Shown: positions 35,595 to 52,443 of the stretch, piece by piece | Layout of the letters: every line of letters starts with the position of its first letter | How positions within the stretch are numbered: the first letter of the stretch is position 1 | DNA from: Bryobacteraceae bacterium | Lineage (GTDB): Bacteria > Acidobacteriota > Terriglobia > Bryobacterales > Bryobacteraceae | DNA length: 64,000 nt | Assembly: GCA_025056455.1 (NCBI GenBank) | Contig: JANWVY010000013.1 | Location: 1 to 64,000 of the forward strand | Direction: 5' to 3' | Notes under the pieces: generated by a model | The model's input: the letters and a program-made list of their open reading frames with translations, nothing else | Databases searched by the model: none | What the model was told of the DNA's origin: nothing | Position numbers and translations under genes: made by a program

Positions 35595-37112
35595 TCACTC
35601 ACCCGTGTTCCACGGATGTTTTTTCGGGGTGGGATGGGGATGGGTGTCGGGAACCAGGAACCCTCCGCTGACCAGCTCCGCGAGTGCATCAGCGAAGGCT
35701 TCTATGGGAGTTTCTGGGGAAAGCGCGCCTTGTTCGACGAAATGACGGTAAACATCAAGACCGGTCATCTTCCCGGCGGGTTTTGGCAAAAGATAAGCAG
35801 CCCAGGGCTCGACCTCCCAGCTGCTGCGATAGGGATGCTTGACGGAAAGCACCTGGCCTTGCATCTCCCAGTCGCCATCGCCGGGCGTATGACGCATAGT
35901 CAGCTCCACGGGGCCCGCCTTTAATTTCGAATGGAGCACCATTTGGCGTGCTTCGCCCTTTGCGCGCAGCGTTTCCCATTGGATGAGCCACTCGAGTTCT
36001 TGCGGGCCAGAATAGGGTCCGTGCTCGCGGCGAGCTGTAAAAACGGTGCGCGGTTCTGCACGCCGTTGGATTACGATCATGCAGGCCAGGAAGCGATAGA
36101 TCCGGGCACGGTCGAAAAACTGTTTCCAGCGCGACAGTTCCTCGGTCCCAGACTGAGAACGCAACAAACTCGTACTGACATAACCCGCTGGATCCAAGGT
36201 TTGGATCACCGCGAGGGCAATGTCAAACTCAGCCTGGTGAGCGCCAAGCCACCGGCGCAGCCGGACCTCCATAGGCCCCTCCTCGCGGTCGGAGCCTAGG
36301 CAACGGCAGTAAAATCTGCCGCCTGGCGCCAGATAGCTGGGAAGTTCTTGAATTAGCCGGCGCGTAATCTGTTCCCCATCCTGCCCGCCGGCGTGAAAGG
36401 TCCAGGTGTGATCCAGAACGGGCACAAAAGGCGGATGGGCAGCAATGCGGTCAAAGGTCAGGTCTCCCGCTGGCTCGTAGAGATCTCCCTGGCGCGCGGT
36501 GAAATTGGAGATTCCATTCAAGCGGCTGCTGAATTGAGCGAAAGCGGTCGAACGCTCTGTAATATCGAAACTATAGGCGTGCTGGGCAAAATTTTTCGCC
36601 GCAATGAGAGCTGCCGCACCCGAGCCTCCGCACACTTCAAGATACCGCTGGCAGGGAAAGAGAGGCAGAAACGGCAGGTAGGTCAGCGCGTTTTTCGTAT
36701 CCGGCGGAAAGACCACATCGTCGGCAAAGCCCTGGTCCCGGTGCTCCGCGGGTAGCCAGTGGTCGGAAATGATGTAAAGCTCAAACATCGGACGAATGCG
36801 AACGCTGCCTTGTAAGCGGCCGTCAGCGCTGGTTTGCAGCAGCCCGAGACGTTCCAAACTCGTTACCCCCTGACTGCCAAACAGGGCCAGCAGATGCTCC
36901 CGTGTGGTCGAGGCGCTTTTGAGAAACAAACCAATGAGTGCTTCCTGCGCGTCGGATTCAGCCGGAAGGTGATTGGGTTTTCCGTACGGGAGGAAAGGAT
37001 TTCGCCCTTCTTCATACCGCTTGCTCACTTCCTCATCCGTAAAGCCGTGATCCAGAAACAATTGACGGACCCGCTGGAATTCTTCATCCGTACCAAACCG
37101 AATGGGAATCAT
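35595..37112 (-). CDS. Class I methyltransferase with PrmC/RsmC-like core
   Basis: A 505-residue protein. Residues about 1-125 form an N-terminal helical region of unknown type; the core (about 130-300) has a SAM-binding loop YLEVCGGSGAAALIAAK, an acidic FDITERS strand end and AHPPFVPV at the position of the NPPY motif of HemK/RsmC-like N6/N2 methyltransferases (here His replaces Asn). The C-terminal 200 residues are unlike known domains, with a winged-helix-like end (TGLDVYRHFVEQGALSPETP). The altered NPPF motif makes the substrate type uncertain. No operon partner. Confidence 0.7.
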   Translation of the reverse strand: MIPIRFGTDEEFQRVRQLFLDHGFTDEEVSKRYEEGRNPFLPYGKPNHLPAESDAQEALIGLFLKSASTTREHLLALFGSQGVTSLERLGLLQTSADGRLQGSVRIRPMFELYIISDHWLPAEHRDQGFADDVVFPPDTKNALTYLPFLPLFPCQRYLEVCGGSGAAALIAAKNFAQHAYSFDITERSTAFAQFSSRLNGISNFTARQGDLYEPAGDLTFDRIAAHPPFVPVLDHTWTFHAGGQDGEQITRRLIQELPSYLAPGGRFYCRCLGSDREEGPMEVRLRRWLGAHQAEFDIALAVIQTLDPAGYVSTSLLRSQSGTEELSRWKQFFDRARIYRFLACMIVIQRRAEPRTVFTARREHGPYSGPQELEWLIQWETLRAKGEARQMVLHSKLKAGPVELTMRHTPGDGDWEMQGQVLSVKHPYRSSWEVEPWAAYLLPKPAGKMTGLDVYRHFVEQGALSPETPIEAFADALAELVSGGFLVPDTHPHPTPKKHPWNTGE

Positions 37113-37189: not shown

Positions 37190-39274
37190 TTATTTTGCAA
37201 ACAAAAAAATCCCAACCACGATCAGGATCAAAAACAAAACTCCGAAGACGATCAGGGGCCATTTGGGTTGCGGCTTGGCGGCTGGCGCGGGTTTTGGAGC
37301 AGGCGCCGCAGCTGGCGGTTTAAGCGAATCTGCGGGCCGCTGAATTAAACGTGTGTATTCGCTGGGACCTGCTTCGGGACGAGACGCGATGGGCTGTGAC
37401 TCCGGCACAGCAAAGGATTGAGTTGCTGAGGCGAAGGGGGAGGCTGTGAACAGCGGAGGAGGAGCTGGGGGTGGAGCGGAGGCGGCGGGACGGTCGCCCG
37501 GTCCGAACAGCTTCGAGTATTCATCTTGCACGGATGGAGTCGTCGGGCCAGGGTAAGGGCGCTGCGGAATCGCCCCGACTGGGCCTGGTTGAAACGGACT
37601 TGCTGGAGGAGCTGCGAGCGGAGCGCTAGTGGTACCGGGCATTCCGAAAAAAGGTTGTCCAAGGGGCGGAGTCGCCGCTGGAGCGCTCCAGGGATGAGGA
37701 GGCTGAGGCGCGGGCCCAGCAGGTGCGCCGTGTTGGCCGAAGGCGACAGGGGGCGGCGGTAAGGTGGGCTGCCCGAGCGTCGGACCGCCAAAAACCGAGG
37801 CAGGTGGCGAGGCGATCGGAAGCGGCTGCTTGGGCGCGGCTGGAGGAAACCCACCCGGAGCGCTGCTGGGCGCCGGCGTGGTCGCTCCCGGAAATAGAGG
37901 TTCCCCCATCGGAGCGGCTGGAGGACTCTGAAACATGCGCGTAAACTCCCCTGCCGGTTGTGCGGGCGGAGGTTGCGAGCCAGAAACGGAGGACGGGGGT
38001 GCTGCTGGAGTTTGAAAAAGCCTCGTAAATTCGCCCGGCGGAGTGGTGGTGGGGGGGCTAGGGCTGGGGGGACCGGTCAAGGGTGTGCTAGCCGGTGTGG
38101 TTACAGGCGGGACCATCGAAGGCGACGGCGCTGGCGGACAAAAGTTGGAAAACATCCGGGTAAATTCACCCGCTGCTTCTAGTCTCGAAACGGCTGAGGT
38201 TTCCGGTACGGAGTGGCTGGCCGGAGCTCCCGCACCAAAACCGGGCAGTCCGCTTGAGGGAGCAGCCGGCGGAGGCGTGGCAAATAACCTCGTGAATTCC
38301 CCGGCCTCCACTGCGGGTGGTGCAGCCAGCGCTTGAGGCTGGTCAACAGGCGGCGGAGTGGCTGGTGGTGGAGGCAAGTTTGAGCCGGTCGTTTGTGGGT
38401 TTGAACCTGGTGCGACAAACAGTCGGGTGAACTCGCCAGCGTCTGCCGCGGGCGCCAGGGTCTCGGGCGGCGACGGTATCGCGGCTGACTCACCCGCTGC
38501 CAGAGCTGGCAAAGGGGAGCCCGGCGCGCGAAACAAGCGGGTAAACTCACCACCTTCCATTTCGCCTTTTACGCTGTGAGATGCCGGTGCAGGGAACCCC
38601 CCTGCCGCAAGTGGTAAATCCTTCTTCTCGTTAGCAAACTCGCCGCCGACAGGCGGCATGGCTGGAGAGGGTGTGGCTCCCACGGGCTCCGGGGCAGGCG
38701 CGGGGGACTGGAACAATCGCGTAAACTCACCAGGTTGTGTCTCTGGCTGCTGCGGTTGCTGCGGTCTCGCTTGCGCTTGAAGCAAATCTGCGCTAGGGTC
38801 TTTGCCTCGCGGCGCCGGTGGCGGTGCGGCAAACGGCCCCCCTTCGCTCGAAGGCGTGGATGAGACTGGCGGCGTAGACCTTGGCGCTTCTTGCGAAGGT
38901 TGCGCGGGGGGTGGGGACACAGGGATTTTCCAGCGCCCCACTCGGGACAGGGGATCATACGCTGGTTTTGGCGGAGCTGGAGCCGGTTTTTGGGTCGCTA
39001 GCCATTCCCGAAAGTTCTGAAAACCCTCGAGCGGCAGGGTCACCACAAAGGGTGTTCCCAAATGTTCGCCGTACTCGAGCAAACGTGTGCAATCTCTAGG
39101 GCTGAGGCGCTTCACCTCAGCAAACAACTCGAGCGGAGGTTCTGTCTTGCCCGGCAAGCCGACAAAAAGATGAATTTCCACGAACCGGCCGGTTGCGTTT
39201 TCGCGCCCTCGAAACGTTTTGATTCCGTCATCATGAACTGGCTCGAGCAGCTCGTACTTCTCATATAAGCTCAT
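37190..39274 (-). CDS. Proline-rich membrane-anchored protein with GEFTR[L/M]F repeats and degenerate kinase N-lobe
   Basis: Not a family I can name; 694 residues. Residues 5-93 align by eye with the N-lobe of the two kinases encoded nearby (KYELLEP, GRFVEIHLF, LLEYGEHLGTPFVV), but the VAIK lysine is replaced by His, the glycine loop is lost and there is no catalytic loop or C-lobe. Residues 94-670 are Pro/Ala-rich and carry nine copies of one peptide: GEFTRLF or GEFTRMF at 182, 242, 280, 325, 369, 414 and 442, then DEYSKLF at 584 and SEYTRLI at 638. The C-terminal helix (672-692) would anchor it in the membrane with the long arm on the cytoplasmic side. It is divergent from tssK, separated by 446 bases. 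I infer a scaffold of the secretion system. Confidence 0.85.
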   Translation of the reverse strand: MSLYEKYELLEPVHDDGIKTFRGRENATGRFVEIHLFVGLPGKTEPPLELFAEVKRLSPRDCTRLLEYGEHLGTPFVVTLPLEGFQNFREWLATQKPAPAPPKPAYDPLSRVGRWKIPVSPPPAQPSQEAPRSTPPVSSTPSSEGGPFAAPPPAPRGKDPSADLLQAQARPQQPQQPETQPGEFTRLFQSPAPAPEPVGATPSPAMPPVGGEFANEKKDLPLAAGGFPAPASHSVKGEMEGGEFTRLFRAPGSPLPALAAGESAAIPSPPETLAPAADAGEFTRLFVAPGSNPQTTGSNLPPPPATPPPVDQPQALAAPPAVEAGEFTRLFATPPPAAPSSGLPGFGAGAPASHSVPETSAVSRLEAAGEFTRMFSNFCPPAPSPSMVPPVTTPASTPLTGPPSPSPPTTTPPGEFTRLFQTPAAPPSSVSGSQPPPAQPAGEFTRMFQSPPAAPMGEPLFPGATTPAPSSAPGGFPPAAPKQPLPIASPPASVFGGPTLGQPTLPPPPVAFGQHGAPAGPAPQPPHPWSAPAATPPLGQPFFGMPGTTSAPLAAPPASPFQPGPVGAIPQRPYPGPTTPSVQDEYSKLFGPGDRPAASAPPPAPPPLFTASPFASATQSFAVPESQPIASRPEAGPSEYTRLIQRPADSLKPPAAAPAPKPAPAAKPQPKWPLIVFGVLFLILIVVGIFLFAK

Positions 39275-39720
39275 GGCTTGCGCGGTCCCCCTCGGTTTGT
39301 TTCCGCGGAGATTGCATGTTGTTCGGGCAGCAGGCAGAAATCTCTCCGATCAGCGCCTGCGCCGGTTAGCCGCCACCTGATCGATTCAAGAACGGGTTGG
39401 CTCGACTCACTCGAGCGCGGCTATGACCCGACGCCCTCAGTATAACGGCCTCGCCCGGCCTTCGACCCAAAAAAATTTCTCCGAAACGATTTCGGTCGGA
39501 AGATAAACTCTGAATCTTGCCTCTTCATAAACGCGTATCGGCTCGCAAAATCCCCTCGCTCGCGTTTGGAAAAATTGCTGGAGCGGGACGTCTCGCCTAA
39601 CCTGCGGTCCCTGGAAGGCCGGACGCAGCACTCAGCCTTTTGCCTCCAGCGCCAGAGGCCGAACCCCCTGGCTATGTTAGAGTATACTGGCGGCAAGTCG
39701 CAAATTCGCGCCATCCATCT
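39275..39720. other. Divergent intergenic region between the repeat protein and tssK
   Basis: 446 bases without a credible gene. It contains a perfect inverted repeat CCGAAA-CGA-TTTCGG at 39481-39495, a TATACT-like -10 for tssK at 39683-39688 (inside the 8-base palindrome AGTATACT, 33 bases before the ATG), and a TATACT-like box on the other strand near 39440. No good -35 or sigma-54 GG-N10-GC element was found. Frames here are short and unlike proteins. Confidence 0.4.
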
Positions 39721-41079
39721 ATGAAAAACCTTTCCAGGGTTGTGTGGTCGGAGGGGATGTATCTCGGGCCGCACCATTTCCAGGTGCAGAATCGCTATTT
39801 TGAAGACTCGATCCGCTTTGTCACGACGAACCTGTGGTTTGAATCCTACGGCTTAGTTGGACTCCAGCTGGATGCGGATGCACTGCGCAACGGAACGGTG
39901 TCGCTGACGCATGCCCGGGGCATTTTCCCCGATGGTCTGATCTTCCACATGCCAGACTCTGACCCGTTGCCCCCGCCGCGCGCCATCGCCGACATTTTCC
40001 CTCCCACAAGGGACAAGCTACGAGTCATGCTCGCCGTTCCATCCCGCAAGCCAGATGGGGTCAACTGTGTTCCCGTGGAAGACGCTGCCGCGTCGCCTGG
40101 TGTTCGCTTCTGGGCTGAAACCAAAATTCTCTACGATGAGACCACGGGCCGCGACGAAAAGCCCGTCAAGCTAGGCCGTAAAAACATTCGTTTGGCGCTC
40201 GAAACGGAGGTGCGCGAGGATGAAGTTTCGTTTCCCATCGCACGAGTCATGCGCGATGGAGCCGGCGGCTTTCTCTATGATCCCGAATATATTCCTCCGT
40301 GTGTGGATCTGGCCGCCAGCGACCGCTTGATGCTGATGGTCCAGCGGCTGGTTGAAATCCTGGAAGAGAAAAGCGCAGCGCTTTCGGTAGGCAAGAAGGC
40401 GACAGGCAAAAGCTGGGCCGAATTTTCCACTTCCGATATTGCTCGCTTCTGGATGCTACACGCCGTCCATGCCGCACTACCCTGCCTGCGACACCTTCTG
40501 CTGACGCGGCGGGGACATCCCGAAGAACTTTATTCCGAGATGGCTCGTCTCGCCGGTGCGCTTTGTACGTTCGCTCTTGATTCCCATCCGCGATCCATCC
40601 CACTCTACGATCACCTCAACCTGGATGTCTGCTTCCAGACCCTGGACAGCCACATTCGCCGGCATCTGGAGACGATTGTTCCCACCAACTGTATCCCGAT
40701 CCCCCTCCAAAAAGTGGGGGATTACTTCTGGCAGGGTGAGATTCAAGACCAGCGTGTTCTGGACCATGCCCGCTGGGTGTTCGCCATCTACTCCCAAATC
40801 GGGGAAGCGGAGGTGATTCTGCGGACGCCCGCGCTTGTGAAGATCTGCTCCCAGAAATACATCCAGGAACTGGTACGGCGTGCACTCCCCGGCCTAGTGC
40901 TGACCCATCTCAAGATTCCGCCCGCGGCAATTTCTGCACGTGCCGACACGCAATATTTCGGCGTCAGCCGCGCTGGCCCGTGTTGGGAAACGATCGTCTC
41001 GACCAGACAAGTCGGAATTTACGTGCCTGGCGAGTTACCCTCGCCACGCATTGAGCTATTGGTCGTCTTGGAATCATAA
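39721..41079 (+). CDS. tssK: Type VI secretion baseplate subunit TssK
   Basis: A 452-residue TssK, the trimeric baseplate component that links the T6SS baseplate to the TssL-TssM membrane complex. The diagnostic N-terminus VVWSEGMYLGPHHFQVQNRY is intact, followed by the shell domain and, near the C-terminus, the membrane-complex-binding region (RADTQYFGVSRAGPCWETIV ... GIYVPGELPSPRIELLVVLE). I start at the ATG at 39721 (MKNLSRVVW), since the frame upstream is a TTG-initiated non-conserved extension. It is followed after 11 bases by tssL. Other baseplate genes (tssE, F, G) are not in the window. Confidence 0.95.
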   Translation: MKNLSRVVWSEGMYLGPHHFQVQNRYFEDSIRFVTTNLWFESYGLVGLQLDADALRNGTVSLTHARGIFPDGLIFHMPDSDPLPPPRAIADIFPPTRDKLRVMLAVPSRKPDGVNCVPVEDAAASPGVRFWAETKILYDETTGRDEKPVKLGRKNIRLALETEVREDEVSFPIARVMRDGAGGFLYDPEYIPPCVDLAASDRLMLMVQRLVEILEEKSAALSVGKKATGKSWAEFSTSDIARFWMLHAVHAALPCLRHLLLTRRGHPEELYSEMARLAGALCTFALDSHPRSIPLYDHLNLDVCFQTLDSHIRRHLETIVPTNCIPIPLQKVGDYFWQGEIQDQRVLDHARWVFAIYSQIGEAEVILRTPALVKICSQKYIQELVRRALPGLVLTHLKIPPAAISARADTQYFGVSRAGPCWETIVSTRQVGIYVPGELPSPRIELLVVLES

Positions 41080-41090
41080 ACGAGGTTCGC

Positions 41091-41813
41091 ATGTCAACCC
41101 TAGCTGCTCCAAGCAGTGCTACCCCTTCGCGGCAACCGGAAAATTTGGCGCTCGTGTTTCAGGAAATCTTGACTGTGATTGAGCGCATGCGCTCCCACCG
41201 GCAGCCCATTAGCGATGCCGGTGTGTTTCGCCAGCAAGTGCGCGAAGCGCTGAGAGCTGCCGATCAAGAAGCTCGTCGGAGGGGCTACACCGCGGAGGAT
41301 ATTCAGTTAGCCATCTTCGCCGTGGTGGCCTTTTTGGATGAAACTATCCTCAACTTGCGTTTACCCGTGTTTGCAGATTGGACTCGCCAGCCGCTGCAAG
41401 AAGAGCTTTTTGGCCATCACATTGCGGGCGAGGTGTTCTTTCAAAATCTCCAAACCCTGCTGGGCCGGAATGATTCACAGCAGCTGGCCGATCTGCTCGA
41501 GGTCTATCAGCTTTGCCTTCTGCTCGGCTTTGCCGGCCGCTACGCGATCGGAGGACGAGGCGAATTACGCGCCATTATTGAAGCGACGGCGCTCAAAATC
41601 AAACGAATCCGCCAGTCGAACGCAGAAATCTCGCCTCGCTGGCGACTTCCCGCCGAAACATTCAACTTCGCGACGGTTGATGTTTGGGTGAAGAGACTGC
41701 TGTATGGCGCGATTGCGTGTGTGGCCGTTACGGTCCTGCTGTTTGTCATCTATAAGATGTCGCTAGCCAGCGGAATCTCAAGCCTTCGGGAACTCACCGC
41801 ACAAGCTCGGTAG
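41091..41813 (+). CDS. tssL: Type VI secretion membrane-complex protein TssL (DotU/IcmH family)
   Basis: A 240-residue DotU-family protein. The cytoplasmic hook domain spans about residues 15-185 and shows the conserved AVVAFLDETIL and LELFG-like EELFGHHIAGEVFF segments; one membrane helix near the C-terminus (about 203-224, LLYGAIACVAVTVLLFVIYK) leaves a tiny periplasmic tail. There is no OmpA-like peptidoglycan-binding extension, so anchoring to the wall would need another protein. GAGG precedes the ATG; 9 bases separate it from tssM. Confidence 0.93.
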   Translation: MSTLAAPSSATPSRQPENLALVFQEILTVIERMRSHRQPISDAGVFRQQVREALRAADQEARRRGYTAEDIQLAIFAVVAFLDETILNLRLPVFADWTRQPLQEELFGHHIAGEVFFQNLQTLLGRNDSQQLADLLEVYQLCLLLGFAGRYAIGGRGELRAIIEATALKIKRIRQSNAEISPRWRLPAETFNFATVDVWVKRLLYGAIACVAVTVLLFVIYKMSLASGISSLRELTAQAR

Positions 41814-41822
41814 GAGGAGTCC

Positions 41823-44800
41823 ATGCAGCTGTATTGGAGGACCGTAATTGGCTACATCTTCATGATGGTATGCGCGGCCATCGCCACCGAAGTGTATAAG
41901 GTCGGCGGGGAACACTCTCGCACGATTCTTTACTGGCTCGGGCTGCTGGGATTAACTTCGACCGCTTTTCTTTATTTCTTCCAGTCCAAATTTGATCAGT
42001 GGCGCGAGCGGCGAAAACTCGCCAAACAAGGGGGTGCAGCCGCCGATGCTGCCACTGCGGAGGGCTCACCGGGTGCTGCCGCCGAGGGCGCGGGAGACAT
42101 CGACCTGTTGGTCAAAGACGCGGAAGCCAAGCTGCAAGCTTCTCGTCTCGGACCGAAGGCCACCATGAGCGGCTTACCCGTGATCTTCCTGGTGGGCGAT
42201 CAAAATAGTACGAAAACGACCGTCATGGTCCATTCCGGCCTGGAACCAGAACTGCTTGCCGGACAGATCTACCAGCAGGACAACCTCATTGTTCCCACGC
42301 GGTCGGCCAATTTCTGGTTCGCCAAAAAGGCGATCTTTGTCGAAGCGGGCGGTCCGCTTTGGGGTAACGATGCCGCCTGGACGCGACTTCTGAAAAAACT
42401 CGCTCCACCAAAGCTAAAATCCGTCTTCAAAAACGAAGCGGTTGCCCCACGGGCCGCTTTGCTTTGTGTCGATCTTGAGCGTTTCCTCCAGCCGGGCGCC
42501 TCCGACGCGATGGCTGCCGCTGCGCGAGGAGTGCAGGCGCGCTTGCAAGAAATCTCCACCACGTTCGGCATTAACTTCCCCGTCTACGTGCTGTTTACGC
42601 GAGCCGACCGCGTGCCTTTCTTTCTCGACTTCGTCCGCAACCTCTCCAATGAAGAAGCTACCCAGGTTTTCGGCGTAACTCTGCCCATGCGCTCCTCGCA
42701 GGGCGGTGTCTACGCCGAGGAAGAAACTCAGCGCCTGAACCAGATGTTTAATGAGCTCTTCTACTCGTTGTGCGACAAGCGCATTGAGTACTTGCCGCGC
42801 GAAAATGACGCCGAACGCTTGCCAGGTTGCTATGAATTTCCGCGCGAATTTCGAAAATTGCGCGCGAGTTTAGTCCAGTTCCTCGTTGATGTCGGCCGGC
42901 CCAGCCAGCTGTCAACTAGCCCTTTCTTGCGCGGTTTCTACTTCACGGGCGTTCGTCCGGTGATTGTTTACGACGTTGCCCCCAACCCTGTGTTTCAGCG
43001 CCAGCAGCCATCCCCCTTTGACCCCAGCAGTGGCGCCACTCGCATGTTCAAACTCAGCGAGGTGACTGCGCCGCCCGTGGCTGCCCCGCAGCAAAGTGGA
43101 GGGCGTAAAGTTCCGCAATGGGTTTTCTTAAGTCATCTGTTCCATGACGTCATTCTCGAGGACCGAGCGGCTCTCCGCGCCAGTGAAGCAAGTACGAAAA
43201 CCAGCGGGATGCAGCGCGCTTTACTCGCCCTTGCTTCCCTGCTTGCTCTCTTTTGGTCTCTCGGCATGACCATTTCCTACTTCAACAACCGCGCTCTCGA
43301 AAAACGCATTCTCGAGGAAGCGCGCCAGCTCAACGCCGTCCGGCTGGCTGCAAATTCGCTTCCCTCTGAGAGCGATCTAAAGCGACTCGCGGACCTGCGC
43401 GTGGAGCTCCAGAAACTAGGCCAGTGGCAACGGCAAGGTCGCCCGTTTTTTTACGGTTTTGGGCTTTATGTGGGAGACTCCCTGTACCCGCTTGCTCGGA
43501 AGGCTTATTACAACGGATTTGAACGTCTGCTGTTTGAGGAAACCCAACAGCGGCGCATGCTCACGACGTTGCAAGGCCTCCAACCGGGGCCCGATCAAGC
43601 CCAGGACAAGTGTGGCTATGTTTACGACACACTGCGCGCCTATCTGATTACGACTTCCCAATGGCGCCGTGTCGCCCCGCAGGCTGAGCAAGATCGACTG
43701 CGCAGCCTTCTCCAGGCACGTTGGACCGAGGGAAGAGAACAAGAGATTGGCGAATCACGCGCCAAAGCCGCGCTCGATGAATTTACTTTCTACTCAAGCG
43801 ACCTGAGCCGCGGCAATCCCTATTCGGAGACAGAAGATGGGCGCGGCGTCCACCAAGCGCGCCTATTCATGTCCCAGTGCTCGGGTTTAGAAGCCATCTA
43901 CAACCGTTTGATCGGCGAGGCCAGCGCCGCTAACCCTACCGTGAACTACAACGCCAAATTCCCTTGGACTAGCGCCGTGGTGCGCAACAATGTCGATATT
44001 CGCGGAGCGTTTTCAAAATCGGGCTGGGACTGGATGCGAAAACGTCTCGCGAAAGCCGATGACTTGGCTGGCGAGGAGTGGGTGCTCGGACCAATCGAAA
44101 AGTATCCCCGTTCGGCCGTCAATGCCGCCACCCTCGTTTCGGACCTGTGGACTCGCTACTCAACAGATTTCATCCAGCGCTGGCGCGACTACTTCAACAA
44201 GCATACGCTTGTGCTGGGGTACAGCTCTCCGAGTGATGCTGCTGCGAAGCTCAAAATTCACTCCGATACCCGGGCGCCAGTCCTCTATCTGATCGGCCTG
44301 GCGAGCCAGAACACTGCCGTTGAGCCATCGAATGAAAAGTACGCCGCTAAGGTTCGAGAGGCCTTCTATTGGGCTCATACCATTGTTCCGCCCGGGAATG
44401 ATTTCCTGCTTCCCAACAACCGACCCTACGTGACTGGCTTGCAAGGTTTACAGATTGCGGTCGAAGCGGCTGCAGCGAAACCCGATGACGCCATGCTCGT
44501 TCAGGCCACCGAAACCAAAAAATTGGAGGCCTTAGCCATGGTGGGACAAGTGGCCACCTTCAGCCGCGCCGATCTCGAGGGCAAACTGGATGCCTCCATT
44601 CGCGAACACATGGAGCGGCCAATCCGCGCCTTGAGGATCGAACCACCGAGCCCGCTGCGTAGCGCCAATGCCGCCGCCGGCGAAATGTGTAAACAGTTCA
44701 ACGTCATTACCAATAAGTTCCCCTTCAACCCGAGGGTGAAGCCCGAAGTGACGGTTGCTGAGCTAAACGACTTGCTCCAGCCGCCGAGCGGAAAATTCTG

Positions 44801-45350
44801 GGCTTTTTACGAGACCCACCTCAAACAGTTCTTGCAACGCAACGGAACTCCTGTCCCCGGAGCAGCCGTGCAGTTCAATCCCCAGTTTCTCAATTTCTTT
44901 TCTCAAGTGGTCCGTCTCTCTGACGCTCTGTACAAAGCTGGACCCAATCCCACACTGAACTACTCGATCCAGCTGGTCGAGGTCCGGTTTGAACTGGATG
45001 GTTCGAAGGCGACGACAGGCACCCTCACTGTGGATGGAAAGGTAGCCCGCCTGGGCGGACCTCCCACCCCGTTTGTGTGGACTGGCATTCCTTCGCACTC
45101 GGTTAGCTTCAACTACAACAACATTCCCGCTTTTGCGGAAACTGGCCTGTGGGCGATCTTCCGCTTTTTTGTCGACGCCAACGTCTCCGGCTCAGGTGGG
45201 AACTACGTCATGATCTGGCCCGTAAAGGGCGGCACCTCCGAGCGGCCGATCGCCAACGCGCGCTTCCAGGTGGACCTCAGCGGGGCCCCCGCCGTTTTTG
45301 ATAAAAACTTCCTCAGCGGCTTGCGTTGTATTGCAAACGTTGGCAAATAA
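41823..45350 (+). CDS. tssM: Type VI secretion membrane-complex protein TssM (IcmF family)
   Basis: The large inner-membrane component of the T6SS trans-envelope complex; 1175 residues, within the family's usual size. Two N-terminal helices (about 7-25 and 31-52), a cytoplasmic GTPase-like domain (about 110-400) and a third helix (463-487), followed by the periplasmic domain ending in beta-rich sequence (SGGNYVMIWPVKGG). The nucleotide-binding loop is GDQNSTKTT at residues 125-133, where the usual Gly before Lys is Thr, so binding may be impaired. AGGAGG precedes the ATG. No tssJ lipoprotein gene, its usual outer-membrane partner, is nearby. Confidence 0.95.
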   Translation: MQLYWRTVIGYIFMMVCAAIATEVYKVGGEHSRTILYWLGLLGLTSTAFLYFFQSKFDQWRERRKLAKQGGAAADAATAEGSPGAAAEGAGDIDLLVKDAEAKLQASRLGPKATMSGLPVIFLVGDQNSTKTTVMVHSGLEPELLAGQIYQQDNLIVPTRSANFWFAKKAIFVEAGGPLWGNDAAWTRLLKKLAPPKLKSVFKNEAVAPRAALLCVDLERFLQPGASDAMAAAARGVQARLQEISTTFGINFPVYVLFTRADRVPFFLDFVRNLSNEEATQVFGVTLPMRSSQGGVYAEEETQRLNQMFNELFYSLCDKRIEYLPRENDAERLPGCYEFPREFRKLRASLVQFLVDVGRPSQLSTSPFLRGFYFTGVRPVIVYDVAPNPVFQRQQPSPFDPSSGATRMFKLSEVTAPPVAAPQQSGGRKVPQWVFLSHLFHDVILEDRAALRASEASTKTSGMQRALLALASLLALFWSLGMTISYFNNRALEKRILEEARQLNAVRLAANSLPSESDLKRLADLRVELQKLGQWQRQGRPFFYGFGLYVGDSLYPLARKAYYNGFERLLFEETQQRRMLTTLQGLQPGPDQAQDKCGYVYDTLRAYLITTSQWRRVAPQAEQDRLRSLLQARWTEGREQEIGESRAKAALDEFTFYSSDLSRGNPYSETEDGRGVHQARLFMSQCSGLEAIYNRLIGEASAANPTVNYNAKFPWTSAVVRNNVDIRGAFSKSGWDWMRKRLAKADDLAGEEWVLGPIEKYPRSAVNAATLVSDLWTRYSTDFIQRWRDYFNKHTLVLGYSSPSDAAAKLKIHSDTRAPVLYLIGLASQNTAVEPSNEKYAAKVREAFYWAHTIVPPGNDFLLPNNRPYVTGLQGLQIAVEAAAAKPDDAMLVQATETKKLEALAMVGQVATFSRADLEGKLDASIREHMERPIRALRIEPPSPLRSANAAAGEMCKQFNVITNKFPFNPRVKPEVTVAELNDLLQPPSGKFWAFYETHLKQFLQRNGTPVPGAAVQFNPQFLNFFSQVVRLSDALYKAGPNPTLNYSIQLVEVRFELDGSKATTGTLTVDGKVARLGGPPTPFVWTGIPSHSVSFNYNNIPAFAETGLWAIFRFFVDANVSGSGGNYVMIWPVKGGTSERPIANARFQVDLSGAPAVFDKNFLSGLRCIANVGK

Positions 45351-45391: not shown

Positions 45392-46816
45392 ATGGAGCTT
45401 CCAGCCAGAATCGGTAAGTATGAGCTGCAAGAGTTTCTAGGCGGTGGGATGTCCCACGTCTACAAGGCGCAAGATACGGTGCTGGGTCGGACAGTGGCAG
45501 TGAAAATCCTCACCGAGGCAGGTTGCGCCGATCCAGAAACTAAAGCCCGGTTCCTGCAGGAAGCGCGCACGGCTGGAAATTTCTCCCACGACAACATTAT
45601 TAACGTCTTTGATTTTGGCGAGGATCAGGGGCGTCCCTTCATCATCATGGAGTTTCTTCGAGGTGAGACGCTCAAGGAGGCCATTCGCGGAGGCCGCACC
45701 GGCGACCTTTACAAAAAGTTGGACATCGGTCTCCAGCTGGCCAAAGCCCTGGATTACATCCACTCCAAAAAGATCGTCCACCGCGACATCAAGCCCGACA
45801 ACGTGCACATCGACGCTTCCGGAAGAGTCAAGTTGATGGATTTTGGAATCGCCAAGTCCCAAAACGTCGCTCTCACCCGAGTGGGCTTTACCCTTGGGAC
45901 GCCTTACTATATGGCTCCGGAGCAAGTGCTTGGCCAGCAAGTTACCGCTCTGGTGGACGTCTATGCTTGGGGCATTATGATGTTTGAGCTGCTGACTGGC
46001 GTCAAACCGATTTCCGGTGAATCCATCGACAAAGTCTTTCAGCAAGTCCTCAACGAGCCCCTAAATCTCGAACCGCTTCGCACGCGGGGGATTCCCGAAC
46101 CGCTGATCGATCTGATTCGCCGGTGCACTGCGAAGAATCCCTCCGAGCGTCCCTCCGGCTTCGGTCTGATTTGCGCGGAATTAGAGAGAATCATGGACGC
46201 GCTCAGCCCAACCTCCTACGGACAAACAGGCTCTACCTCAAGCCGGATCTTCAATCCCACGTCAAGAACGGAGATCCCATCCACCAGCCCAGCCCCCCAA
46301 ACGGCTCCGAAGCTTTCTGCTCCACCCAGTGAGCCCGGCCTGCCACTCCCGCCTCCCACCCCCACTGAGCTTCCAGTTGGGATTTCTCAAACACCGCTTG
46401 TGGGCAGCAGCATGGAAGCTGGCGTTTCTTTGGCCGGACCGCTTCCGGATTTCAGTTTCCGTCCGGATCCACCTGCTGCTGCGCCGAATCCGGTTGGGCC
46501 TCTTGTTCCACCTCCTCGACAACACCCAGGCCCCCACACTGCAACGAGCCCAGCCTCGTCGCCGTCCTACCGGTCCCCATCTTCTCCCTCCAGTCCCTCG
46601 TACGGATCCTCCCCTCTTTCCCCCTCTCACGCTGCAACACCCCGGTCATCCGAACCTCCGGCCGCCCCAATCGAAGGACTGCCCGATTGGATTCTTTCGT
46701 TACCCCCTCAATTCCGCACCCAAGCCTGGTTCACCATCCTTTCCGCCATTGGCGTCATCCTCGGCATGTTCCTGATTGTCGTCATTCTCAGGCTTCTGAT
46801 GCGCCTGGTTTTCTAG
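45392..46816 (+). CDS. Ser/Thr protein kinase linked to the T6SS locus
   Basis: A 474-residue Hanks-type kinase. Active residues are intact: GGGM loop (17-20), Lys38 (VAVKIL), HRDIKPDN with Asp132, DFG at 150-152 and APE at 175-177. A Pro/Ser-rich linker (about 275-440) leads to a single membrane helix (about 448-471) at the extreme C-terminus, so the kinase faces the cytoplasm with no extracellular sensor. It lies 41 bases after tssM. In other T6SS loci the PpkA kinase phosphorylates Fha-type proteins to activate assembly; a similar role is inferred. Target candidates include the GEFTR repeat protein. Confidence 0.92.
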   Translation: MELPARIGKYELQEFLGGGMSHVYKAQDTVLGRTVAVKILTEAGCADPETKARFLQEARTAGNFSHDNIINVFDFGEDQGRPFIIMEFLRGETLKEAIRGGRTGDLYKKLDIGLQLAKALDYIHSKKIVHRDIKPDNVHIDASGRVKLMDFGIAKSQNVALTRVGFTLGTPYYMAPEQVLGQQVTALVDVYAWGIMMFELLTGVKPISGESIDKVFQQVLNEPLNLEPLRTRGIPEPLIDLIRRCTAKNPSERPSGFGLICAELERIMDALSPTSYGQTGSTSSRIFNPTSRTEIPSTSPAPQTAPKLSAPPSEPGLPLPPPTPTELPVGISQTPLVGSSMEAGVSLAGPLPDFSFRPDPPAAAPNPVGPLVPPPRQHPGPHTATSPASSPSYRSPSSPSSPSYGSSPLSPSHAATPRSSEPPAAPIEGLPDWILSLPPQFRTQAWFTILSAIGVILGMFLIVVILRLLMRLVF

Positions 46817-46823
46817 ACTCTCT

Positions 46824-48629
46824 ATGCATTTGCCCGCGGCGTTCGGGAAGTATCAGCTCGAAAAGTTGTTAGGCGGAGGCATGTCGCAGGTCTACCAAGC
46901 CACGGATACTGTACTGGGCCGGACAGTCGCCATCAAAATCCTCTCAGCGGAGGGTTGCCGGGATGAAGACGCAAAAACGCGTTTTCTTCTCGAAGCCAAA
47001 ATGTGCGCCAGCATTACGCATGACAACATCATCCGGGTGCACGACTACGGTGAGATCGATGGCAGACCGTTTATCGTCATGGAGTTTCTTACCGGCGAGG
47101 ACCTCCGCAGCGCGATTCAAGCTGGACGATTAGGCGGTATTAAAACGCGATTAGAACTCGCTCTCCAGGCCGCGCGCGCGCTCGGCCATGTCCATAAACA
47201 GAACATCATTCATCGCGACATTAAGCCAGAAAATCTCCATATCGATGAAACTGGCCGCCTGCGGTTGATGGACTTTGGTATTGCAAAAGCTGCCAACTTG
47301 TCCCTAACCAGGACTGGCTTTGCCGTTGGCACGCCCTATTACATGGCGCCGGAACAGGTGCTTGGCAAGCCTGCGACACCGGCGGTAGATATCTATGGCT
47401 GGGGCCTGTTGCTGTATGAGCTGCTTGCTGGCCAGCGGCCCCTCTCGGGCGATAGCATTGAGGTGCTCTTTTTCCAAATCCTCCATCAGCCCCTCGATCT
47501 CAGTCCTTTGCAAGCTTTGTCGGATGTGCCGGCCGAAGTCATCGATTTGATCCGGCGCTGCACGGCCAAAAATCCGGAAGATCGCCCGGCGAACTTCGAT
47601 ATCGTCATTGCGGAACTAGAAGCGGTGCTGAGAAATCTAGATCGTGGCACGCAAAGACCAGTCGCTTCTGCCGATTCTGTGTTGCTGCCTCCTCGCACGA
47701 TGGCCGACGCTTCTCCCTTCACGGCAAACGTGACGCACGAGCCCCAGCCTCCCCCCTCCACCTCGCCGCTTCTATCCACCCGGTTCCAGCCCAAATCGCG
47801 GTTCCTGCTCGTGGGTGCGGGTCTCGGCTTGTTGGCTGCCGTCGCCCTCGCGATTGTCCTCCGAGGCAATCGCGAACGCCAGACGGCGGAATCTTCGAAA
47901 GCAGTGGCTCCAGCTGCCTTTGCCCTCCCAGATCGCTACAGCGACCCTATCACGGGCGCCGAAATGATCTTAATCCGGGAGGGTTACTTCTTATTTGATA
48001 AAGAAGCGCGGCGGGAATATCTCGACGCTTTTTACATTGACCGGACGGAGGTCAGCAAAGCGCAATGGAGCCGCTATGCCCGCGCCCGCGGCTTGCCTCC
48101 GCCGGACGGCGACCCCGACGAACCCGTGGTGAACATTACGATCGGCGAAGCAAGGCAATTCGCCACCTGGGCCGGCAAATCCTTGCCCAACGCCCGGCAG
48201 TGGGAAAAGGCCGCCCGAGGTCTAGACGGAAGAACTTTTCCCTGGGGAAACGACACCACGACCTGGAAGGCGAATCTCCGCGGCACAGCTGGCTTACCAC
48301 CCCAGCAGGTGCAACCTGTCACAGCGGAACTGGGCGTGAGTCCTTTCGGTCTTCTAAATGTTGCCGGAAACGTGTGGGAATATGTTGACGAACGCCGCCC
48401 TCCGAGCCTGGCGTTCTTAGAATTCTTAAAAGCCCGTCAAATCAAAGTCGGCCCAAATGACGAGTTCTACACCATGCGTGGCGGCTCCTTCAACTCTAGC
48501 TTAGAAACCGCCGTCGTCTACGAATTTGCGCCTGTGCTGGCTGAGCAGCGGTCGGCCGAGGTCGGCTTCCGCTGCGTCAAACCCGCAAAACTCGTCGAAC
48601 AAGAACTCCGAAACTCGACCACACGTTAA
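46824..48629 (+). CDS. Ser/Thr protein kinase with extracytoplasmic SUMF1-like domain
   Basis: A 601-residue transmembrane kinase 7 bases after the first one, with key residues at identical positions (GGGM 17-20, Lys38, Asp132, DFG 150-152, APE 175-177), so the two are tandem paralogues. A helix at about 327-346 places the C-terminal half outside the cytoplasm. That half (about 370-592) is a formylglycine-generating-enzyme-like (SUMF1) fold, seen in AFYIDRTEVSKAQWSRYARA, WEKAARGLDGRTFPWGND, NVAGNVWEY and VGFRCVKP. It lacks the Cys pair of active FGE, so it is more likely a ligand-binding sensor. Likely partner of the T6SS regulatory pathway. Confidence 0.92.
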   Translation: MHLPAAFGKYQLEKLLGGGMSQVYQATDTVLGRTVAIKILSAEGCRDEDAKTRFLLEAKMCASITHDNIIRVHDYGEIDGRPFIVMEFLTGEDLRSAIQAGRLGGIKTRLELALQAARALGHVHKQNIIHRDIKPENLHIDETGRLRLMDFGIAKAANLSLTRTGFAVGTPYYMAPEQVLGKPATPAVDIYGWGLLLYELLAGQRPLSGDSIEVLFFQILHQPLDLSPLQALSDVPAEVIDLIRRCTAKNPEDRPANFDIVIAELEAVLRNLDRGTQRPVASADSVLLPPRTMADASPFTANVTHEPQPPPSTSPLLSTRFQPKSRFLLVGAGLGLLAAVALAIVLRGNRERQTAESSKAVAPAAFALPDRYSDPITGAEMILIREGYFLFDKEARREYLDAFYIDRTEVSKAQWSRYARARGLPPPDGDPDEPVVNITIGEARQFATWAGKSLPNARQWEKAARGLDGRTFPWGNDTTTWKANLRGTAGLPPQQVQPVTAELGVSPFGLLNVAGNVWEYVDERRPPSLAFLEFLKARQIKVGPNDEFYTMRGGSFNSSLETAVVYEFAPVLAEQRSAEVGFRCVKPAKLVEQELRNSTTR

Positions 48630-50150: not shown

Positions 50151-51506
50151 ATGAGCCTGTTCGGAGCCTTGATGTCTACGGCCGGCGCATTGCGCGCCTA
50201 TGAACAATCGCTTCAGGTCATCCAAAACAACGTGACCAATGCCGACAGTCCAGGATTCGTACGCCAGCGGCTCTATTTCACCCCCAAAAAACTCGATCTC
50301 CAACAGGGACTTCCGGGAGGAGTTGCGATTGGAGACCTGATCTCCAGCCGCGACGCCTACGCCGAGCGCAATGTCTGGCGCCAAGCCCATCTGTTCGGCC
50401 GCTCGGCTCAACAGGCCGCGGACCTCGAACAGATCGAACCGTCGTTCAAAATTGCAGCCGGCGCCGGCCTTGCCGGAGCCATGAACCTGTTCTTCAACGC
50501 TGTCTCCAGCTGGAGCGTGAACCCCAACGACCCCGTCGCAAGACAAGTGGTGTTAGATCGAGCAAGCGCCACCGCCCGCGCTTTCCAAGAAAACGCTATC
50601 GCGCTGGGTGAAGCCAGATATTCAATCGACCGCCAAGTGCGGGATACTGTTTCACGAATCAATCAAATCGCCCTCCGCCTCCAGCAACTCAACGTCGAAC
50701 TTCGCAGCGACGCCCGCAAAAGGCTGGATCCCTCGATCGATGCCCAAGCCTACGCCACCCTCGAAGAGCTGGCGCAGTATGTTGATTTCACAGTCCTCAA
50801 GGCCGAGGACGGTAGCTTTAGCGTATTGCTGGGCGGTCAAACACCACTAGTGCTCGGCGACAAAGCGCGCTTCGTCGAAGCTGACTTTTCCACCCCCGAA
50901 ACCGCGATCCTGAACGACTCCGGCCAAGACATCACCTGGCAACTCGCGGGTGGTTCGCTCAAGGGCCTGCTAGAAACAAAACGAGAGCTCTTACCCGCCT
51001 ACGAGGGCGAATTGAACCGGCTCGCCCTAAGCTTCGCCGAAAATGTGAACGCGATCCTCGCCAGCGGCCTGGACCAAAGCGGCTCTTCCCCGACCCTGGA
51101 CCTGTTTACCTTCGACCCGCTCCGGCCTGCTGCCACCTTGAAAACCAACCTTCTTCAACCACAAGATCTTGCCGCTGCGAGCCCGACCGCTCCTGGAGGA
51201 AACGCCAACGCGCTACGTCTGGCCGCCCTGGCCACCGCGAACACCATTTCCGACCTCAGCTTCACAGAGTTTTACGGACAACTTGCCGCGCGCGTCGGAA
51301 AAGACCTCGCCTACTTCAGAGAAGCGAAAACTCTCCAACAGCAGCTTCTCAACCAGGCCCGAACCCTGCGCGAACAACAATCCGCTGTCTCCCTCGATGA
51401 GGAAGCCGCACGCTTGATTGAAGCGCAACGCGCGTATCAGGCAAATGCCCAGTTGTTTCGTGTCCTAAATGAACTCACTGATACCTTGATTGGACTCCTC
51501 AGGTGA
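50151..51506 (+). CDS. flgK: Flagellar hook-associated protein 1 (FlgK)
   Basis: First hook-filament junction protein; 451 residues, shorter than the roughly 550 of E. coli FlgK, implying a reduced central domain. N-terminus (MSLFGALMSTAGALRAYEQS and IQNNVTNADSPGFVRQRL) and C-terminus (LIEAQRAYQANAQLFRVLNE) are the conserved coiled-coil D0 helices of hook proteins. AAGGAGG precedes the ATG. flgL begins four bases after the stop. Confidence 0.93.
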   Translation: MSLFGALMSTAGALRAYEQSLQVIQNNVTNADSPGFVRQRLYFTPKKLDLQQGLPGGVAIGDLISSRDAYAERNVWRQAHLFGRSAQQAADLEQIEPSFKIAAGAGLAGAMNLFFNAVSSWSVNPNDPVARQVVLDRASATARAFQENAIALGEARYSIDRQVRDTVSRINQIALRLQQLNVELRSDARKRLDPSIDAQAYATLEELAQYVDFTVLKAEDGSFSVLLGGQTPLVLGDKARFVEADFSTPETAILNDSGQDITWQLAGGSLKGLLETKRELLPAYEGELNRLALSFAENVNAILASGLDQSGSSPTLDLFTFDPLRPAATLKTNLLQPQDLAAASPTAPGGNANALRLAALATANTISDLSFTEFYGQLAARVGKDLAYFREAKTLQQQLLNQARTLREQQSAVSLDEEAARLIEAQRAYQANAQLFRVLNELTDTLIGLLR

Positions 51507-51510
51507 CACC

Positions 51511-52443
51511 ATGATGCGAGGGATCTCAGCAACTACCGAAAAATTCCTGCTCGACCTGGAACGGTTGCAAAAGCGCTCCGCGAAAGCCCAACAACAGCTT
51601 TCCTCAGGCCTCAAAATCACGAAGGTCTCCGATGCCCCAGACGAAGTCTCGCGTCTCTTAATAGCTCGGGCAAACCTTGCTTCCGTCGTACAAACCCAGC
51701 AAAACCTTGGCCGGGTCAAACTCGAGGTTGATACGGCCGAAAAAGCCCTTCAAAATGCCGTTAGCCTGCTCGAACGGGCTCGCACGCTCACCGCGCAAGG
51801 CGCCAACGACCTGCAAGGTCCTGCCACCCGAAGACAGATCGCCAGCGAGTTGCAAGGGATCCTAGAACGGCTCGTTGCAGTGGCCGCCACCGCTGTCGAA
51901 GATCGCTATCTGTTCAGCGGAGATTCCGATCAAACGCCACCTTATGAACTCGATCTTTCGACCAACACCGGAGTGGGGCCTTATCAGGGTTCAGCACCCA
52001 ACCGGATGATTGCCGACACTAGCGGCTTGCTTTTTTCCATCGCTCAAAGTGCGGACGTCATTTTTGACGCCCCCGATCCGGAAAACAAAGTTTTCGCTGC
52101 CGTCCAAGGAGCACGCCGCGCTCTTCTTGCCGTCGACCAGCCGACAGATCCCCCAGACCCCACCATTCCCACCGTGGCCCAGGCGCTGCGCCAGCTTGAA
52201 ACCGCCAACCGCTACTTGAACCAGCAGCTGGCCTCCTACGGGCTGATCCAAAACCGGGTACGCGAGGCGCTCGACGCCGCTACCCGGCTTGAAATCAGCC
52301 AGCGGGCTCAAATCGCTGAAATCGAGGAAGCGGATTTGGCGCAAGTGGCAGTAGAGCTTACCCAAACCCGCACCGTGCTCGAAGCTGCTCTCCAAGCGCG
52401 CGCCGCCAACCCCAGGCGAAGTTTGTTTGACGTGCTTCGCTAA
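51511..52443 (+). CDS. flgL: Flagellar hook-associated protein 3 (FlgL)
   Basis: Second junction protein, flagellin-like; 310 residues. The N-terminal helix region (SAKAQQQLSSGLKITKVSDA) and C-terminal helix (ADLAQVAVELTQTRTVLEAA) are the paired flagellin-fold helices, and the central part (FSGDSDQTPPYE) fits FlgL. The ATG at 51511 is preferred over a TTG at 51490 within flgK. Last gene of the flgM-flgN-flgK-flgL group; no flagellin gene follows. Confidence 0.93.
   Translation: MMRGISATTEKFLLDLERLQKRSAKAQQQLSSGLKITKVSDAPDEVSRLLIARANLASVVQTQQNLGRVKLEVDTAEKALQNAVSLLERARTLTAQGANDLQGPATRRQIASELQGILERLVAVAATAVEDRYLFSGDSDQTPPYELDLSTNTGVGPYQGSAPNRMIADTSGLLFSIAQSADVIFDAPDPENKVFAAVQGARRALLAVDQPTDPPDPTIPTVAQALRQLETANRYLNQQLASYGLIQNRVREALDAATRLEISQRAQIAEIEEADLAQVAVELTQTRTVLEAALQARAANPRRSLFDVLR

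Follow-up and report, generated by a model that had tools for sequence, protein, structure and literature searches.

How a T6SS chooses its assembly sites, and how cargo-loaded spikes are delivered to its membrane complex, are open questions. They bear on a gene in a 64,000-nucleotide stretch of a Bryobacteraceae genome (contig JANWVY010000013.1, positions 1 to 64,000; hereafter the window). The gene is transcribed divergently from tssKLM and encodes a protein in which one short threonine-containing peptide is repeated many times. The gene and its elements were located as follows.

37190–39274, minus strand: GEFT protein (the motif-array protein), 694 aa, tail-anchored
38987–39274, minus strand: kinase N-lobe-like domain, aa 1–96, without catalytic Lys and without C-lobe
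38711–38731, minus strand: GEFTRLF, aa 182
38531–38551, minus strand: GEFTRLF, aa 242
38417–38437, minus strand: GEFTRLF, aa 280
38282–38302, minus strand: GEFTRLF, aa 325
38150–38170, minus strand: GEFTRMF, aa 369
38015–38035, minus strand: GEFTRLF, aa 414
37931–37951, minus strand: GEFTRMF, aa 442
37505–37525, minus strand: DEYSKLF, aa 584 (DEYQKLF, NEYEKLF or DEFSKLF at the same site in relatives)
37412–37429, minus strand: SATQSF, a class-II element, aa 616–621 (GATQSF, GATGAF or SATQVF in relatives)
37343–37363, minus strand: SEYTRLI, aa 638 (SEYTRLF or SEYTRMF in relatives)
37199–37261, minus strand: C-terminal TM anchor, about aa 672–692, from hydropathy; hydrophobic tails are conserved in relatives

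The first-pass annotation had reported a nine-copy array at window positions 37343–38731. Seven exact GEFTR[L/M]F copies and two diverged ones were found there as described; the spacing was corrected from 28–140 to 28–142 residues, and SATQSF was added as a tenth element. The same annotation had called the rest of the sequence featureless, a description withdrawn on account of the N-lobe-like domain, the SATQSF element and the C-terminal anchor. In 2000 shuffles of the linker the motif was matched 0.03 times on average and once at most, against seven matches observed. A Pfam search of the protein returned no domain; the N-lobe was visible only by profile comparison and fold. Literature searches for GEFTRLF and GEFTRMF gave no matches, and no prior description of such a Thr-motif array protein was found in the literature.

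For motif conservation a non-redundant set of 71 linkers, totalling 30,847 aa, was used; it contained FT..F 481 times, compared with 4.75 in shuffles, and relatives had about 3–15 copies per protein. The consensus was [GSD]-E-F-T-x-[ML]-F. Motif instances were collected by a pattern with fixed flanks and the Thr position left free. Thr occupied its position in 90% of instances and Ser in about 1%, figures that include Thr-free sites within arrays and miss Thr-free arrays, since the array proteins themselves were chosen by a Thr-containing pattern. Some sites carried Ser, Gln or Glu for Thr (DEYSKLF, DEYQKLF, NEYEKLF). Position +1 was variable (R 66, Q 13, K 9, A 5, S 4), position +2 was M, L, F, I or V, and position +3 was F in 96%.

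A related motif was found in TssM, encoded on the divergent side of the locus by the third gene of tssKLM.

39640–41079, plus strand: TssK (T6SS_VasE), the divergent neighbour, E 1e-132
41091–41813, plus strand: TssL (DotU), E 1.5e-48
41823–45350, plus strand: TssM (IcmF)
43032–43049, plus strand: GATRMF in the TssM linker, predicted cytoplasmic

The window TssM reads SSGATRMF in the linker between the NTPase domain and the third TM segment. TssM topology is known and sets this linker on the cytoplasmic side, hence the placement given above. All but three of 67 distinct TssM linkers matched the pattern [AS]T..F (64, against 1.4 expected), and the rest of the linker was divergent. The core common to the array protein and TssM is T-x-phi-F, where phi is hydrophobic; of the array consensus, TssM and class-II motifs retain Thr and Phe at +3 and have lost Phe at −1 and Glu.

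FHA domains bind phosphothreonine and not phosphoserine (PMC3146460), and an array of Thr with hardly any Ser therefore fits phosphothreonine read by FHA domains. The best reading of the GEFT protein is as a T6SS-dedicated inner-membrane multivalent phospho-scaffold, one that we judge evenly poised between right and wrong; its phosphorylation, FHA binding, N-lobe role and cargo recruitment would all be predictions. The main rival, possible and clearly the less probable of the two, is docking independent of phosphorylation. Here E-[FY]-T-x-[ML]-F would be a short amphipathic peptide of F-x-x-phi-F type that binds some T6SS component, for example TssK or the kinases, or an aromatic sticker that, set in Pro/Ala spacer sequence, forms a membrane condensate in place of the Fha scaffold. 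Conservation of Phe at −1 and +3 and of a hydrophobic residue at +2, retention of the aromatic frame in the Thr-free DEYQKLF and NEYEKLF, and the sticker-and-spacer layout all agree with it, as does the report that PpkA and Fha form T6SS condensates (PMC12607579). Against it, Thr is as well kept as Phe −1 and is hardly ever replaced by Ser, Val or Ile, and it is Thr and Phe +3, not Phe −1 or Glu, that persist in the TssM and class-II motifs.

The phospho-scaffold reading calls for kinases, and the first-pass annotation had named two across the operon as active. Both have intact catalytic motifs, in keeping with that call as far as sequence can tell.

45392–46816, plus strand: PK1, Ser/Thr kinase, Pro-rich linker, C-terminal TM
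46824–48629, plus strand: PK2, Ser/Thr kinase, TM, FGE-sulfatase domain

PK1 has the layout of the GEFT protein (kinase part, Pro-rich linker, C-terminal TM). No T-x-x-F motif was evident on inspection of the PK1 and PK2 tails. The kinase-TM-FGE-sulfatase fusion in a tssKLM operon might join a PpkA-like kinase to a periplasmic sensor; a link of its FGE-sulfatase domain to TagR was considered, and a literature search gave no support for it. Alignment of the N-domain profile to PK1/PK2 with hhalign gave probability 95.5 and E 1.3e-8 over 89 columns. The AlphaFold model of the domain had a pLDDT of 83, and all 50 Foldseek matches listed were protein kinases, each with probability 1.0, E values between about 2e-3 and 7e-3 and a TM-score near 0.5 of the query. 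The position of the beta3 Lys is His (His35) in 43 of 50 relatives. Given this His and the missing C-lobe, the profile and model identify the domain as a kinase N-lobe without its catalytic half, predicted to be catalytically dead. It resembles Hanks-type kinases and pseudokinases in N-lobe fold and in profile similarity to PK1/PK2; unlike them it is an N-lobe only, lacks catalytic Lys, HRD and DFG, and is continued by a disordered array that ends in a TM segment.

A dead N-lobe together with many substrate sites could also act as a sponge or brake that titrates the kinases and delays phosphorylation of TssM. The motif core common to TssM, the homology of the N-lobe to the neighbouring kinases and transcription divergent from tssKLM are in line with such a role. 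We consider it improbable: copy number ranges widely (about 3–15), with no sign of tuning against TssM.

The distribution of the gene and its linkage to tssKLM were examined next. The array protein was found in 26 of 61 genomes, 25 of them within the same family. In the 26th, G049, the N-domain alone is present: a similar N-lobe-like domain there (L103:3787–6798) belongs to a 1004-aa protein of different architecture that lacks the motif array. Matches to motif-coding DNA added three carriers (G016, G018, G019). Of 105 matches to GEFTRxF-coding DNA in the 61 genomes, 103 lay at the array locus, the exceptions being a single match each in G000 and G012. On contig C11 of the window's own genome, a 133-aa frame contains one GEFTRVF, which was taken as chance. 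With a broader DNA pattern in 297 Acidobacteriota genomes, single matches were near chance and clusters occurred only in G000, G173 and G333.

A scan of genome contigs with the N-domain of a single protein returned no matches, and a TssK alignment was therefore used as bait. It yielded 80 named loci: those of Bryobacterales, Bryobacteraceae and Solibacteraceae, and others in MAGs that are mostly Acidobacteriota. The N-domain was encoded divergently upstream of tssK at 63 of these, with conservation of the array, and at 47 of the 61 with at least 2 kb of upstream sequence; L137 likewise has array and anchor. Downstream of tssK, TssL was found at 72/73 loci, TssM at 62/62 and a kinase at 38 of the 50 loci whose DNA extends far enough; at the other 12 no gene following tssM could be recognised as a kinase. 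G044, from another family of the order, and G173 and G333, from a distant one, show this gene order too, and synteny spans three families (f1, f3, f34). The T6SS sheath gene tssC lies at contig C4:88413, 24 kb past the window. The T6SS link proposed at first pass is thus real and recurrent, and the array protein is a conserved T6SS-linked family.

Several further genes were noted around these loci. Two distant TssK paralogues are present in the window's own genome (C29:126318–127595 and C4:39775–41067); both occur in many relatives, often flanking the array gene, and MTS-type methyltransferase genes adjoin both (window 35595–37112; L112:15149–18208). A second, divergent TssC/VipB-like gene (C11:583538–584425, E 4e-60) possibly belongs to another contractile system. 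FlgK-like and flagellin genes (window 50151–52443) lie directly downstream of the T6SS and kinase genes.

Strong TssK matches (E below 1e-100) were obtained in 32 of the 61 genomes. The array protein was present in 28 of these 32 and in one of the other 29 (G005), raw counts uncorrected for kinship. In G005, a genome 79% complete, neither TssK nor TssC was found, and motif carriers are otherwise linked to the T6SS. Its orphan copy (L082:9633–10607; 325 aa) has four motifs and an ATRLF site and lies away from tssK. This copy is what speaks for a general membrane scaffold whose adjacency to tssK is incidental, a reading that the three-family synteny and the kinship-uncorrected contrast of 28/32 with 1/29 make more improbable still than a sponge.

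The first-pass annotation had ascribed the array to selection on the protein and not to recent duplication, on the ground that codons differ in every copy. All nine copies do differ at the DNA level (Gly as GGT, GGC or GGG; Arg as CGA, CGC, CGG, AGG or CGT), and a tandem-repeat array of the motif sought at the DNA level within the gene was not found. Across six ortholog pairs the 275 motif codons showed no residue change and 79 silent changes (29%), whereas the residue changed in 379 of 2501 spacer codons (15%) at an equal silent rate. Purifying selection acts on the motif peptide. The second half of the earlier claim was narrowed, as adjacent repeat units are near-identical in L088 and L107, where local duplication produces copies. 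These units are the one point in favour of a neutral low-complexity repeat kept by DNA duplication, a reading refuted by the motif-codon comparison; the lack of a common DNA-level repeat among the window copies also counts against it.

For the phospho-scaffold the next element would be a reader. The first-pass annotation had suggested an FHA protein of the T6SS; a search for PF00498 at the T6SS loci of nine carrier genomes found no FHA gene, and the suggestion is not supported in that form. Two FHA proteins are encoded in the window's own genome. One, FHA-GAF-SpoIIE, is a phosphatase located away from the T6SS locus; the other is an FHA-DUF4123 fusion. A PP2C phosphatase of the PppA kind was not seen among the annotated genes of the window. 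DUF4123 is a domain of T6SS effector adaptors. G030, G014 and most of the window's genus carry such fusions. In G019 (L116:5212–6820) a PAAR gene is followed by the gene of an FHA protein whose C-terminal domain is DcrB-like (Pfam E 0.002), possibly a T6SS chaperone that reads phosphothreonine; G018 and G044 have homologues over its full length. In carriers other than the window's genus, G014, G018, G019, G030 and G044, FHA-adaptor fusions were not found.

The FHA-DUF4123 fusions fall into two subtypes. One, in relatives, has the canonical phosphothreonine-binding residues (GR, SxxH, NG) and mostly carries RTSTVLF, RTSTALF or RESTEMF between the FHA and DUF4123 domains. The other, which includes the window's own genome, has VGS or VGK for VGR and is without the motif. 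The own-genome fusion (contig C23, L111:5684–6601) reads VGS, with the phosphate-binding Arg lost. A tie of FHA to the T6SS in the clade is supported by the fusion of FHA to effector-adaptor domains, the PAAR neighbour and the motif-bearing linkers; the reader in the window's own genome is putative. The proposal of phosphothreonine reading thus stands in part: Thr predominates over Ser as FHA reading would leave it, and the own FHA adaptor is without the canonical Arg.

Known systems were compared with this arrangement. In Agrobacterium, PpkA phosphorylates TssL Thr14 and Fha binds pThr14 with a Kd of 0.5–1.6 mM, which secretion requires (PMC3953482). The likeness to this PpkA/PppA/Fha pathway lies in Hanks-type Ser/Thr kinases encoded with T6SS genes (PK1 and PK2 in the window), in candidate phosphothreonines on inner-membrane T6SS components, and in FHA domains in T6SS-related proteins. 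Unlike that pathway, FHA is here fused to effector adaptors, and Thr is carried by TssM and by a dedicated display protein with many copies, not by TssL. Because the T6SS loci of the nine genomes searched yielded no Fha gene, full membership was not assigned; the best-supported placement is as a variant of the T6SS threonine-phosphorylation pathway particular to this lineage. In Acidovorax, PpkA and Fha condensates recruit T6SS parts (PMC12607579), as would the membrane-associated multivalent recruiter proposed here, although the proteins are different. In the FHA protein GarA/OdhI of Actinobacteria an ETTS phosphorylation motif adjoins the FHA domain (PMC12321487). Motif and FHA are in one protein, as in the STVLF-bearing FHA-DUF4123 adaptors. 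The GarA/OdhI motif continues as ETTSVF, again a Thr motif with a hydrophobic residue and then Phe after it; GarA/OdhI differs as a soluble metabolic regulator with one motif, outside the T6SS. We propose, by analogy, a multivalent counterpart of the Agrobacterium and Acidovorax precedents, in which many weak pT-x-x-F sites would be held on a membrane anchor beside TssM; the phosphate, the reader and the N-lobe partner are all putative.

In this mechanism the C-terminal anchor would fix the GEFT protein in the inner membrane, and the disordered Pro/Ala linker would show many copies of T-x-[ML]-F, mostly GEFTRMF. The dead kinase N-lobe may recruit or activate the co-encoded kinases, perhaps via N-lobe pairing, and these would phosphorylate the Thr residues of the array and of the TssM linker. 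FHA proteins, including FHA-fused effector adaptors where present, would then bind pT-x-x-F, and many weak sites could jointly draw adaptor and spike cargo together at the TssM membrane complex. Extended further, and only tentatively, this would amount to a T6SS phospho-code: a single T-x-phi-F phosphothreonine signal on display protein, TssM and adaptors, written by kinases and read by FHA adaptors for multivalent cargo loading, with the N-lobe as recruiting module.

The retention of a kinase N-lobe without its catalytic half is itself of interest. A multi-site Thr display protein and the same motif in TssM would offer a directly testable answer, from an understudied phylum, to how assembly sites are chosen and loaded spikes delivered. 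With as many as about 15 motif copies, the array of the Bryobacteraceae, which are soil bacteria, resembles a switch of their type VI secretion weapon that works by multi-site phosphorylation and docking.
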